Assembly (NCBI GenBank): GCA_019912845.1 | Contig: JAIOHU010000137.1 | Location: 92,730-156,729, forward strand | DNA length: 64,000 nucleotides | Direction of reading: 5' to 3' | DNA from: a bacterium | GTDB lineage: Bacteria > Electryoneota > Electryoneia > Electryoneales > Electryoneaceae | Shown: positions 53,183 to 57,622 of the stretch, piece after piece | Layout: every line of letters begins with the position of its first letter | How positions within the stretch are numbered: position 1 is the stretch's first letter | Translations under genes and position numbers: made by a program | Notes under the pieces: generated by a model | The model's input: the letters and a program-made list of their open reading frames with translations, nothing else | Told to the model about the DNA's origin: nothing | Database searches by the model: none

Positions 53183-54361
53183 TTAGCGATCCAGTTCTAA
53201 CTTAACATTCTGGAGATTGGCGAGATCAATTTTAATGGGGGTGATCTGGTTACCTAAAGGATTGTGAGTAACAATAATCAGTGGTTGGGTCGGTTTATTT
53301 GGATTGGTTCGAGCAACAACTCCGACAAACCCTTTTAACTTCTGCAGGCTGGCTTCTACAATCTTGACTCTTGCACCAACCGGATAACGTTCTATAACAG
53401 ATGCCAATGCCTGCACAGCATAACTGTTCCAGCGAGTGCCAGCTTCACTGATGATTTTCTGAAGAGCCTGCTCGGGTGAATAGATGGTTTCGTCCACATC
53501 ACCGGAGATCAAGTTATCGTAATAGTTTGCCACGCTGAGGATGAAAGCGTGATGGAATATCTCAGATTTGTTGGTGGGCGAACGTCGCGCTGGAGAAATA
53601 TCATGCGCTGTCAATCCCTGCGGATATCCTTCACCACCTAACTCTTCGTGATGGTGATGAACCGTAAAATGCTTGGAAAAGCCGCTGGGATCATTTCCCT
53701 GGACTAGTAGCATGGAATAAGTGGGATGTTCTTTGTAATATACTTCCTGCTCTTTTGGTGAGACCTGCGGTATTACCGCTTTACCTATATCGTGCAAGAG
53801 TGCGGAAGATGCCAGGGAATAGAGGTCTTTCCAGTTATAGTCAAAGAGCCTGCCCATTAATATGCAAAGTATCGTCGTATCAACCGCATGTTCATAGTCT
53901 TTCCCACTGTCTGATTTGATAGGCAGCGCAGCAAACATGCTGATATTGTTGGAAATGATATCATCCATAATATTTTCAACGATATTTTTTATTTCAGGCA
54001 TACGGATGATGTGGTTCAACTTCGGGTCGTCGTTGATTCTCGCTTTTAATTTTTCCGGGTCAAGGGTTTTCAGGGCAGTATTTTTACGAATTGAAGGATG
54101 GTTACGTACTTCTTCGTATGTTTCAATAACCAGCTTATTACTGGTCATTCGTAGCGAGGCACTGATCACTTCTTCGGGGGTGATCTCGTCAGTCAGACCA
54201 TCAGAAACATATACGCTCCTGAATCCATGCTTTTTAAGCAACTTGATGATCTGGTCTGATATCTTATATCCAGCAGCGAGGAGCAGTTTGGAGTTTTCAT
54301 CATACAGAGATTTCCCCAGAACCTGCCCTTGATTTAACCTTGATATATCTGCGAGATACAT
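53183..54361 (-). CDS. HD-GYP domain protein (putative c-di-GMP phosphodiesterase)
   Basis: HAVDTTILCILMGRLF...ALLHDIGKAVIP...VHHHHEELGGEGYPQGLTAHDISPARR (HD and GYP motifs). Confidence 0.9.
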   Translation of the reverse strand: MYLADISRLNQGQVLGKSLYDENSKLLLAAGYKISDQIIKLLKKHGFRSVYVSDGLTDEITPEEVISASLRMTSNKLVIETYEEVRNHPSIRKNTALKTLDPEKLKARINDDPKLNHIIRMPEIKNIVENIMDDIISNNISMFAALPIKSDSGKDYEHAVDTTILCILMGRLFDYNWKDLYSLASSALLHDIGKAVIPQVSPKEQEVYYKEHPTYSMLLVQGNDPSGFSKHFTVHHHHEELGGEGYPQGLTAHDISPARRSPTNKSEIFHHAFILSVANYYDNLISGDVDETIYSPEQALQKIISEAGTRWNSYAVQALASVIERYPVGARVKIVEASLQKLKGFVGVVARTNPNKPTQPLIIVTHNPLGNQITPIKIDLANLQNVKLELDR

Positions 54362-54715
54362 TTATCTGGATTATCCTAAATTGACGCAATCAACCACTCA
54401 TACAAGCGGATATTCTGGAAGCTGCAAGCACCATCTCTGGTGGCACAGAAACTCAAACTAATGGTTCTACCAAAAAATCAGGTAAACCACAATTTCACAC
54501 CATCATGATGACCAATCAAGTTGGAAATCAAATAATAAATCTTAGCTGGAGAATAACAGATTTTTTATATGCTCCACACTTCAATAGAATCAATAAGGTA
54601 AGATTTTCATTTCCAGTTTGCGATAGTTATGCTCATCGTCTGGAGGTTTTGCTTATCGCAAAAAAAGATCAAAAAAACGAAACTCCCTGAAAGTGGAGAA
54701 ACTTTTTAAATTCTA

Positions 54716-54744
54716 TTGTTTTAACCCTCAAAGAAAACTATACT
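54716..54744 (+). promoter_or_regulatory. Candidate promoter (-35/-10) for met leader
   Basis: TTGTTT - 17 nt - TATACT; CTTATC-CC-GATAAG palindrome overlaps -10/start region at 54743-54756. Confidence 0.5.
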
Positions 54745-54798
54745 TATCCCGATAAGAGTATTGTGGACTCGAAAGTCAACAAAACGAATTCAGAGAAC

Positions 54799-54864
54799 AT
54801 GATTTATTTACCTTTAAATAGTATGATGATGCGAATGCAAACTACCGGGGTTTCTCGAGTGTAA
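54799..54864 (+). CDS. Met-rich leader peptide 1: MIYLPLNSMMMRMQTTGVSRV
   Basis: Translated directly; 5 Met incl. start, MMM-R-M run; followed by antiterminator/terminator elements. Confidence 0.75.
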   Translation: MIYLPLNSMMMRMQTTGVSRV

Positions 54865-54924
54865 GCATACGGTATGCTGAAAATTCATTCACAGAACCCC
54901 ATCAAAATCCTGATGGGTTTTTTT
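54847..54924 (+). promoter_or_regulatory. Attenuator 1: antiterminator (54847-54855 with 54893-54900), intervening hairpin (54864-54878), terminator (54898-54924)
   Basis: GGGGTTTCT pairs with AGAACCCC; AGCATA-CGG-TATGCT; CCCATCA-AAATCC-TGATGGGTTTTTTT. Confidence 0.75.
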
Positions 54925-54949
54925 GTTGCATAAAATTAAAGAAAAATCA

Positions 54950-55051
54950 ATGAACAGCAAAATCAGCAAAGTAGAAAAAGAAAACGAGTTCACCTTCATG
55001 TCATATATGATGATGTATATGATGATGCGCTGCCGCGTGGTGGACACTTGA
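54950..55051 (+). CDS. Met-rich leader peptide 2: MNSKISKVEKENEFTFMSYMMMYMMMRCRVVDT
   Basis: Translated directly; in-frame alternative start at 54998 (MSYMMMYMMMRCRVVDT); 7 Met codons within 10 codons. Confidence 0.78.
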   Translation: MNSKISKVEKENEFTFMSYMMMYMMMRCRVVDT

Positions 55052-55112
55052 ACTATAAACTTATCAAATTCAAATAGTTAAAAGCCCACTGAAAATAAAC
55101 AGCGGGCTTTTT
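55038..55112 (+). promoter_or_regulatory. Attenuator 2: antiterminator candidate (55038-55043 with 55086-55091), intervening hairpin (AACTAT/ATAGTT), terminator (55081-55112)
   Basis: TGGTGG/CCACTG (4 WC + 2 GU); AACTAT(55051-55056)/ATAGTT(55074-55079); AAAGCCCACTG-AAAATAAA-CAGCGGGCTTTTT. Confidence 0.7.
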
Positions 55113-55142
55113 CATTGGTGTACAAACAGAACAGGAGAAAAG

Positions 55143-56351
55143 ATGAAATTCAACACATTAGCGATTCATGGCGGGGCTGGAAATGATCCACAAACCGGTG
55201 CAGTAAGTTTTCCGATCTATCAAACTTCCACCTATTCGCAGGAGGTACCGGGTAACCCACGGATTTACCAGAACAAGGAATTGAGTTATGGTCGCAGCGA
55301 AAATCCGACACGAACCGCATTTGAAAATGCTGTCGCTGCGCTTGAAGGTGCGCAGTATGGCAGTGCTTATGCGTCTGGACTGGCAGCGATAAGCGCAGTA
55401 CTTCACCTTCTGAAGTCAGGAGATCATATTGTTGCGGTTCAGGATTTGTATGGTGGTGCCTACCGCCAATTTACCAAGATATATACCGGCTTTGAGCTGG
55501 ACTTCAGTTTTGTCGATACGACAAACCTTGAAAATATTGAGGCAGCGATTACCAATAAAACCCGCTTCCTCTGGTTAGAATCCCCCAGCAACCCTCTCCT
55601 TAACATAACCGACATCCAAGCTGCCTGTGAAATCGCTAAACGTCACGGGGTTATTTCCATTGTCGACAACACCTTCGCTTCCCCATACCTGCAAAATCCA
55701 CTATCCCTCGGCGCGGATATCGTGCTTCACTCCGCAACTAAATATATCGGCGGTCATTCCGACGTTGTGGGTGGAATCGTCTTGACCAACAATCGGGAGT
55801 ATGGCGAAAGGCTTCGCTTCATTCAAAATGCAGTTGGTGCGATTCCGGGACCACAAGACTGTTTCCTGCTACTTCGTGGTGTAAAAACTCTCGGAGTACG
55901 CATGGACCGTCACTGCCAGAGCGCATTCGAGATTGCCAGACATCTGGAAACTCACCCCAAAGTTTCAAGAGTGTATTATCCGGGCTTGGAGAGCCACCGG
56001 AATCATGAAATTGCCAAAAAACAGATGTCGCTGTATGGAGCAATCGTCTCATTTGAACTCGATGCTGACCTCCCTGAAGTCTTCAGTTTCCTCTGCAGCC
56101 TGAAACTGCTTACGCTGGCAGAAAGTCTTGGCGGAGTTAAAAGTTTAATCTGCCACCCGCCCTCCATGACTCACGCATCGGTTGAACCAGATGTACGACG
56201 TAAAGCCGGGGTGTCTGATGGATTAATTCGTTTGAGCGTGGGACTTGAGGATGCTGAGGATTTGATTGCAGATCTGGATGAAGGTTTGGAGTTTCGCCAA
56301 TCCGGCAATGGAGAAAAGCTATCTGGAAAACCAGTAAAAGGAGCAGTATGA
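55143..56351 (+). CDS. metB: Trans-sulfuration PLP enzyme (cystathionine gamma-synthase/lyase family)
   Basis: YGRSENPTRTAFENAVAALEGAQYGSAYASGLAAI; PLP-Lys LHSATKYIGGHSDVVGG; AESLGGVKSLICHPPSMTHAS. Confidence 0.88.
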   Translation: MKFNTLAIHGGAGNDPQTGAVSFPIYQTSTYSQEVPGNPRIYQNKELSYGRSENPTRTAFENAVAALEGAQYGSAYASGLAAISAVLHLLKSGDHIVAVQDLYGGAYRQFTKIYTGFELDFSFVDTTNLENIEAAITNKTRFLWLESPSNPLLNITDIQAACEIAKRHGVISIVDNTFASPYLQNPLSLGADIVLHSATKYIGGHSDVVGGIVLTNNREYGERLRFIQNAVGAIPGPQDCFLLLRGVKTLGVRMDRHCQSAFEIARHLETHPKVSRVYYPGLESHRNHEIAKKQMSLYGAIVSFELDADLPEVFSFLCSLKLLTLAESLGGVKSLICHPPSMTHASVEPDVRRKAGVSDGLIRLSVGLEDAEDLIADLDEGLEFRQSGNGEKLSGKPVKGAV

Positions 56352-57622
56352 TCGGGAAAATCGGAATAGGCTTGCTGGGTTACGGCAATGTGGGTGTGGG
56401 TCTGGTAAAACTACTGGAACAATCGCAAGAGGTAGTTTTCAGCCGAACAGGATTAACGTTTGAGGTAATTGGAGCGTTGGTACGTGATCCCCAAAAACCT
56501 CGAGAAGTTGCTCTGCCTTTTCTTACAGATGATCCGGCAGAAATTTATCTTCATTCCAAGGTCGATATTGTTGTGGAGATACTTGGTGGAATTGAACCAG
56601 CCACCACCTATCTCCTGGAAGCACTGAAGCACGGCAAACATGTTGTTACAGCGAACAAAGCGGTGCTCGCGGAGAATGGCTCAGAGATATACGGGAAAGC
56701 GCATTCATTGAAACGGCGTGTCGGGATTGAGGCGGCTGTTTGTGGGGGAATTCCTGTGATAAAAGCACTCAACCAGGGGTTGGTGGCGAACCGGATCAAC
56801 GGTATTGATGGTATTATGAACGGCACCACTAACTACATCCTCAGCCAGATGCACCGCAGCGATGTCAGCTACCAGGAGGCTCTTACCCAAGCTCAAAATG
56901 CGGGTTTTGCGGAGCCTGATCCTGCCCTTGATGTGAATGGATCGGACACCGCACAAAAGCTGTCCATACTGGCACGATTTGCGTTCGGTGTTGATCTCCC
57001 CTGGAAACTGATTCCCAGACATGGAATCGAACAGATCAGTTCAGCAGACATTCACTTTGCCCGTAAAATCGGCTATGTAATACGTCTGATTGGTTCGGGA
57101 CACAGAAATGGTTCCGGGATTGACTTCAGGGTTACACCAGCACTGATTCCGGAACGTCACCCACTGGCGCATGTACAAGATGAGTATAACGCAATTACGA
57201 TAAGAGGAGATGCGGTAGATAATCAAATGCTCTATGGCAAAGGTGCAGGAGCATTTCCAACCGCGAGTGCATTGCTCGCCGATATGGTTGATGTAGCAAC
57301 TGGTGGAGGTATAGGAATTGGGCAGTTGAATGGGATTGAGCCAGCGCAATTGACAACACTTCCGACTCGTTATTATCTGCGTTTTCCAATACCGGACAAA
57401 CCGGGAGCAATCGGTAAACTGGCAATGCATCTTGGAGAACAAAAAATCTCAATTCGCAACGCCAGCGCGGAGCTATCAGGTTCGGCGAGTAATGTTGGTC
57501 AGGTGCAGATAGTAACACATCAAACCTACCCAAGTCAGATTGAAAAAGCGTTCGATAAAATAATAGAAGATGGTCTGTTGTTGGGCGATCCTGTAGGGTT
57601 TCCGATTCTGAATCCGAGTTGA
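56348..57622 (+). CDS. hom: Homoserine dehydrogenase with C-terminal ACT domain
   Basis: IGIGLLGYGNVGVGLVKLL; HVVTANKAVLAENG; GGIPVIKALNQGL; GIDGIMNGTTNYIL; ATG overlaps metB stop. Confidence 0.94.
   Translation: MIGKIGIGLLGYGNVGVGLVKLLEQSQEVVFSRTGLTFEVIGALVRDPQKPREVALPFLTDDPAEIYLHSKVDIVVEILGGIEPATTYLLEALKHGKHVVTANKAVLAENGSEIYGKAHSLKRRVGIEAAVCGGIPVIKALNQGLVANRINGIDGIMNGTTNYILSQMHRSDVSYQEALTQAQNAGFAEPDPALDVNGSDTAQKLSILARFAFGVDLPWKLIPRHGIEQISSADIHFARKIGYVIRLIGSGHRNGSGIDFRVTPALIPERHPLAHVQDEYNAITIRGDAVDNQMLYGKGAGAFPTASALLADMVDVATGGGIGIGQLNGIEPAQLTTLPTRYYLRFPIPDKPGAIGKLAMHLGEQKISIRNASAELSGSASNVGQVQIVTHQTYPSQIEKAFDKIIEDGLLLGDPVGFPILNPS

Follow-up and report, generated by a model that had tools for sequence, protein, structure and literature searches.

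How is RNA polymerase admitted to the metB-like/hom operon of an uncultured bacterium, an operon that is preceded by two back-to-back putative attenuator units (54763-55113 of the window, the whole 64,000-nt stretch of DNA analysed here)? In other bacteria, this place is taken by SAM riboswitches, T-boxes or protein repressors. The features of the attenuator class found here are two Met-rich ORFs, with the runs MMMRM in leader 1 and MMMYMMMR in leader 2, and intrinsic terminators between each leader ORF and the metB-like gene. Based on these features and on ribosome-dependent RNA folding, we propose that the first unit is very probably a ribosome-mediated transcription attenuator that senses charged methionyl-tRNA and, as the first of a tandem pair, controls metB-like/hom.

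The operon and its two leader peptides

On one side of the leader region lies a divergent gene of the HD-GYP-like type, which starts at 54361 on the minus strand, and on the other side are two plus-strand genes (Table 1), the second of which overlaps the first by 4 nt at its 5' end. The metB-like protein has top NCBIfam matches of 501 and 495 bits, both under the curated cut-offs, and matches lyase models about as well as models of synthases. The functions of both genes fit methionine/threonine synthesis; a MetX (TIGR01392) match was not obtained in the genome itself. Over 54700-55140 neither strand carries an ORF of at least 60 codons, and no Rfam family reaches its gathering score in the window. 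Between the HD-GYP-like gene and the leader lies a 61-aa ORF beginning MMTNQV (54505-54690), which has no NCBIfam match and could be a gene remnant. The candidate promoter was recognized by eye and scored under the threshold of the promoter scan; the leader is presumably transcribed from a promoter near 54740.

Table 1. Features of the tandem leader region and the operon downstream (window positions).
Feature	Position	Strand	Details	Basis
Candidate sigma-70-like promoter	54717..54744	+	TTGTTT-N16-TATACT; weak -35, good -10	by eye
Leader peptide 1, probable full form	54763..54864	+	GTG start, MDSKVNKTNSENMIYLPLNSMMMRMQTTGVSRV, then stop; 33 codons	likeness to leader 2
Leader peptide 1, shorter form	54799..54864	+	ATG start, MIYLPLNSMMMRMQTTGVSRV, then stop	nested in frame in GTG form
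Control codons of leader 1	54823..54837	+	Met-Met-Met-Arg-Met (MMMRM)	antiterminator gain peaks with A site here
Region 2, antiterminator 1 5' strand	54847..54853	+	GGGGUUU	folding
Second antiterminator helix, 5' strand	54857..54861	+	GAGUG	pairs with 54886-54890
Mid hairpin, juxtaposes regions 2 and 3	54864..54878	+	AGCATA-CGG-TATGCT	sequence, folding
Second antiterminator helix, 3' strand	54886..54890	+	CAUUC	pairs with 54857-54861
Region 3, antiterminator 1 3' strand	54894..54900	+	GAACCCC	folding
Intrinsic terminator 1	54898..54924	+	CCCATCA-AAATCC-TGATGGG; 7-bp stem, 6-nt loop, T7	sequence, terminator scan
Leader peptide 2	54950..55051	+	MNSKISKVEKENEFTFMSYMMMYMMMRCRVVDT, then stop; 33 codons	sequence
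Region 2 of attenuator 2	55039..55043	+	GGUGG	pairs with 55086-55090
Mid hairpin of attenuator 2	55051..55079	+	AACUAU...AUAGUU	folding
Terminator 2	55081..55113	+	AAAGCCCACTG..CAGCGGGCTTT, then T run	sequence, folding
Gene 1, cystathionine gamma-synthase / PLP trans-sulfuration family (metB-like)	55143..56351	+		NCBIfam
Gene 2, homoserine dehydrogenase (hom)	56348..57622	+	448 bits, cut-off 205	NF004976

Leader 1 had been read from ATG 54799 to its stop (TAA 54862-54864). This start should probably be replaced by GTG 54763, which extends the ORF by 12 codons at the N-terminus, since the length then equals that of leader 2 and the two N-termini are alike. The stretches MDSKVNK and MNSKISK align with a P of about 0.0008 by shuffling and their nucleotides with a P of 0.003, whereas the form starting at ATG 54799 has no such likeness to leader 2 (P 0.27). 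The control codons of leader 1 are identical with either start. The sequence AAGAG stands a few bases 5' of the GTG, the Shine-Dalgarno sites of leaders 1 and 2 are weak, and both leaders are presumably translated. Equal length and N-terminal likeness also suggest that the two attenuators go back to an old duplication in tandem of the whole unit; a local DNA alignment of both whole units, which is weaker evidence, scores 22.5 against a shuffle mean of 14.9 and a top score of 24.5 among 300 shuffles.

Alternative folds and ribosome position in attenuator 1

The RNA elements that the sequence-only reading had named for attenuator 1 are all found in the sequence, including the 6-bp hairpin between regions 2 and 3. 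In that reading, region 2 was drawn as GGGGTTTCT (54847-54855), pairing through one bulge with AGAACCCC (54893-54900). The helix is indeed there, but its lowest-energy form (54847-54853/54894-54900) comprises 7 bp, ends in a U-G pair and needs no bulge. A second, 5-bp helix that was absent from the earlier drawing stacks between this 2:3 helix and the mid hairpin. Terminator 1 consists of a hairpin (54898-54917; stem alone -9.4 kcal/mol) and seven T residues (54918-54924), and an independent terminator scan over 900 bp detects its hairpin and no other site of this kind (shuffle mean 0.4). Antiterminator 1 and terminator 1 are mutually exclusive because region 3 and the terminator have CCC 54898-54900 in common.

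Which of the two folds forms depends on the position of the ribosome. The ribosome was placed codon by codon on the leader and the RNA left free downstream was folded, with the codons of attenuator 1 counted from ATG 54799. The 2:3 helix has a probability of 0.93-0.98 when the ribosome occupies the three codons of MMM. Terminator 1 has a probability of 0.12 when the A site is on M9, 0.05 on M10, 0.03 on M11 and 0.01 on R12; the value is 0.24 on M13 and 0.99-1.00 from Q14 through the stop. As long as the 3' arm of the terminator is not yet made, upstream pairing of region 3 is favored by 8.6 to 10.3 kcal/mol when the A site is on M9-R12 and by 6.9 kcal/mol when it is on M13, and has no advantage at the stop. 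The 2:3 helix thus competes with the terminator, as had been supposed from the letters, and the ribosome position selects between them.

The same profile is obtained with the leaders of E. coli, which served as positive controls for the scan. The gain is -9.4 and -10.5 on W10-W11 of trpL, about -7 to -7.7 on H9-H13 of hisL, -8.4 on L11-N14 of leuL and -13.7 on T10-I14 of thrL, each time with a maximum on or beside the control codons and with a small or absent gain at the stop. The control leaders remain terminated at equilibrium, and consequently the kinetic measure, i.e., the gain before the 3' arm of the terminator is synthesized, is what counts here; attenuator 1 passes by either measure. 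Folding and the E. coli profiles agree with the earlier proposal that a stall on Met codons leads to antitermination and arrival at the stop to termination.

The following course of events may therefore be drawn up from our proposal. When Met-tRNA is scarce, the leading ribosome would stall on MMMRM and leave region 2 free to pair with region 3 before the terminator 3' arm is synthesized, upon which RNA polymerase would read through into the second, duplicated Met leader and its terminator. When Met-tRNA is plentiful, the ribosome would reach the stop at 54862 and mask region 2, allowing terminator 1 to form. As both gates must be passed, basal expression would be lower and the response steeper. 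Here, methionine is the presumed signal, and the attenuator terminators are expected to terminate transcription in vivo.

The second unit, chance expectation and homologs

Attenuator 2 has the same layout as attenuator 1 (Met run, region 2, mid hairpin, terminator) in different sequences. Its gain is -7.0 to -7.5 kcal/mol on M21, M22 and M26 and about 0 from R29, and it is also high on the Met-free codons 11-13, so that its gating is less clean and weaker than in attenuator 1. A helix that excludes the terminator and is gated by ribosome position, a further feature of the class, is accordingly present in attenuator 1 and weaker in attenuator 2. Antitermination at equilibrium is seen in attenuator 1 only. 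The formation of terminator 2 at every ribosome position in equilibrium folding would suit a different arrangement, in which termination is constitutive, the leaders serve translation coupling or mRNA stability and the operon promoter lies downstream of 55110. This equilibrium test does not discriminate, since the E. coli attenuators keep their terminators too, and the approximately 31 nt from terminator 2 to the metB-like start offer scant room for a promoter; we regard such an arrangement as extremely improbable.

Neither the competing helix of attenuator 1 nor the pair of Met-rich ORFs is readily obtained by chance. The shuffle tests post-date inspection of the sequence and are treated as descriptive: with the terminator kept and 54842-54897 randomized, 0.45% of 2000 dinucleotide shuffles match both the total energy and the upstream-pairing gain of region 3 in attenuator 1, while the joint P for the competing helix is about 0.07 in attenuator 2 (not significant alone) and about 0.05 in the homolog from genome G029 described below (borderline). 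Shuffling the 781-nt upstream region 3000 times never yielded two Met-cluster ORFs, defined as short ORFs with at least four Met within nine codons, and 3 of the 3000 shuffles contained at least one. The whole 141-nt leader is modestly more stable than its shuffles (z -1.28), as expected if the function resides in alternative helices; for switches this z-score is uninformative.

Among 39 genomes of the phylum, the metB-like/hom pair is present in one other, G029, with 61 and 51% identity. Its operon (L002 1326-1475) has a GTG-started leader peptide, MIATTTSMRKLSQMTPVRVGS followed by a stop, with codons for Thr and Met, both products of the hom branch. Besides an AAGGAG site, this leader has a terminator and, where the ORF ends, a competing helix. 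Its antiterminator gain lies at 4.4 to 6.3 kcal/mol between M8 and T15 and is about 0 from V17. The geometry of the G029 leader and of attenuator 2, one diverged homolog and one duplicate, is like that of attenuator 1, whereas the sequences differ.

These data bear on two further alternatives. Leader 1 might be an ordinary gene for a small protein that has a terminator of its own, and its competing helix might have arisen by chance; short ORFs with a terminator behind them are common, and the weak Shine-Dalgarno sites are compatible with such a gene. It is nevertheless highly improbable in view of the tandem Met-run ORFs in front of a Met-pathway operon and the competing helix, with the shuffle frequencies given above, the resemblance of the ribosome-position profile to real attenuators, and the same layout around a different peptide in G029. 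Alternatively, another signal might be read, through nascent-peptide arrest by methionine or SAM with the Met codons as part of the arrest sequence, through an undescribed SAM-binding RNA or through a protein. The leaders share a M[DN]SK[VI] start, equal length and Met-Arg beyond the Met run, and an undescribed RNA class would be compatible with the missing Rfam match. We consider this highly improbable, as the C-termini differ among leader 1, leader 2 and the G029 leader while the control codons keep their place with respect to region 2. Sensing of Met-tRNA by leader translation is the reading that we retain.

At 80 loci with metB-like homologs, in Bacteroidetes and others, a Met leader of the window type was not found, and the metF-type gene of the genome itself has no Met leader before it. 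A metB-hom pair in Armatimonadetes (L031) has neither a leader nor a terminator upstream, and the SAM-I riboswitch (RF00162) is absent from the 39 phylum genomes. A pattern of ATG run, stop and T run (phylum; 386 genomes) gave many chance matches, and among the matches listed only the two window sites were attenuator-like by eye. A looser pattern, applied to the genome itself, gave 246 matches compared to 87 in the reversed control, too many to use.

Comparison with known attenuators

SAM (S-box) riboswitches and Met T-boxes control methionine genes by premature termination. They need no leader peptide, unlike the attenuators described here, and none was found in the window. The two ORFs of the Salmonella mgtCBR leader sense different signals. 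Translation of the two short ORFs in this leader is expected to act on stem-loops by which transcription of the coding region is controlled (PMC3641672). The mgtCBR leader is similar to the one described here in its tandem attenuators with two short ORFs in one leader; it belongs to a virulence/Mg2+ transport operon, whereas leader ORFs 1 and 2 share their codon run and look like duplicates.

For methionine, a leader with a clear terminator was not found in the open-access full-text literature, where one leader is proposed and its terminator is unclear; a clear precedent for duplicated methionine attenuators was likewise not found in the open-access literature. The proposed case is metL of Streptomyces lividans, a methionine-dependent leader peptide before metNIQ (PMC8079986). 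Its transcript is leaderless, its Met residues are scattered among Thr, Cys and Arg, and according to the authors it lacks a typical Rho-independent terminator (PMC8079986). Both systems place a leader peptide before a methionine gene, but that of S. lividans precedes a transport operon, unlike metB-like/hom (PMC8079986).

If our proposal is true, the locus is a natural two-stage attenuator, duplicated with clean terminators, in which the contribution of a second, similar gate to gain and basal level can be tested directly. Few cases are documented in which an amino acid is sensed through stalling of ribosomes on runs of AUG, and the locus would also permit a direct test of the relation between internal-AUG stalling and the supply of initiator tRNA. 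We lean toward the view that the duplicated Met-specific pair is a two-gate cascade in which one tRNA is sensed twice, with a steeper and tighter response than that of a single attenuator.

By the tested features, the window system belongs with the classic leader-peptide attenuators. Similar to the trp, his, leu and thr leaders of E. coli, it has a run of control codons within a short ORF, a region 2 that lies directly 3' of these codons, a 2:3 antiterminator opposed to a 3:4 intrinsic terminator and release at the stop, and the codon-scan profiles coincide. It differs from the E. coli cases tested in that the antiterminator of attenuator 1 wins at equilibrium while theirs does not, and from the E. 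coli leaders in its control codon, AUG read by the elongator Met-tRNA, and in its two tandem units. The mechanism is classic, and what is unusual is that methionine is sensed and that the units are duplicated in series.
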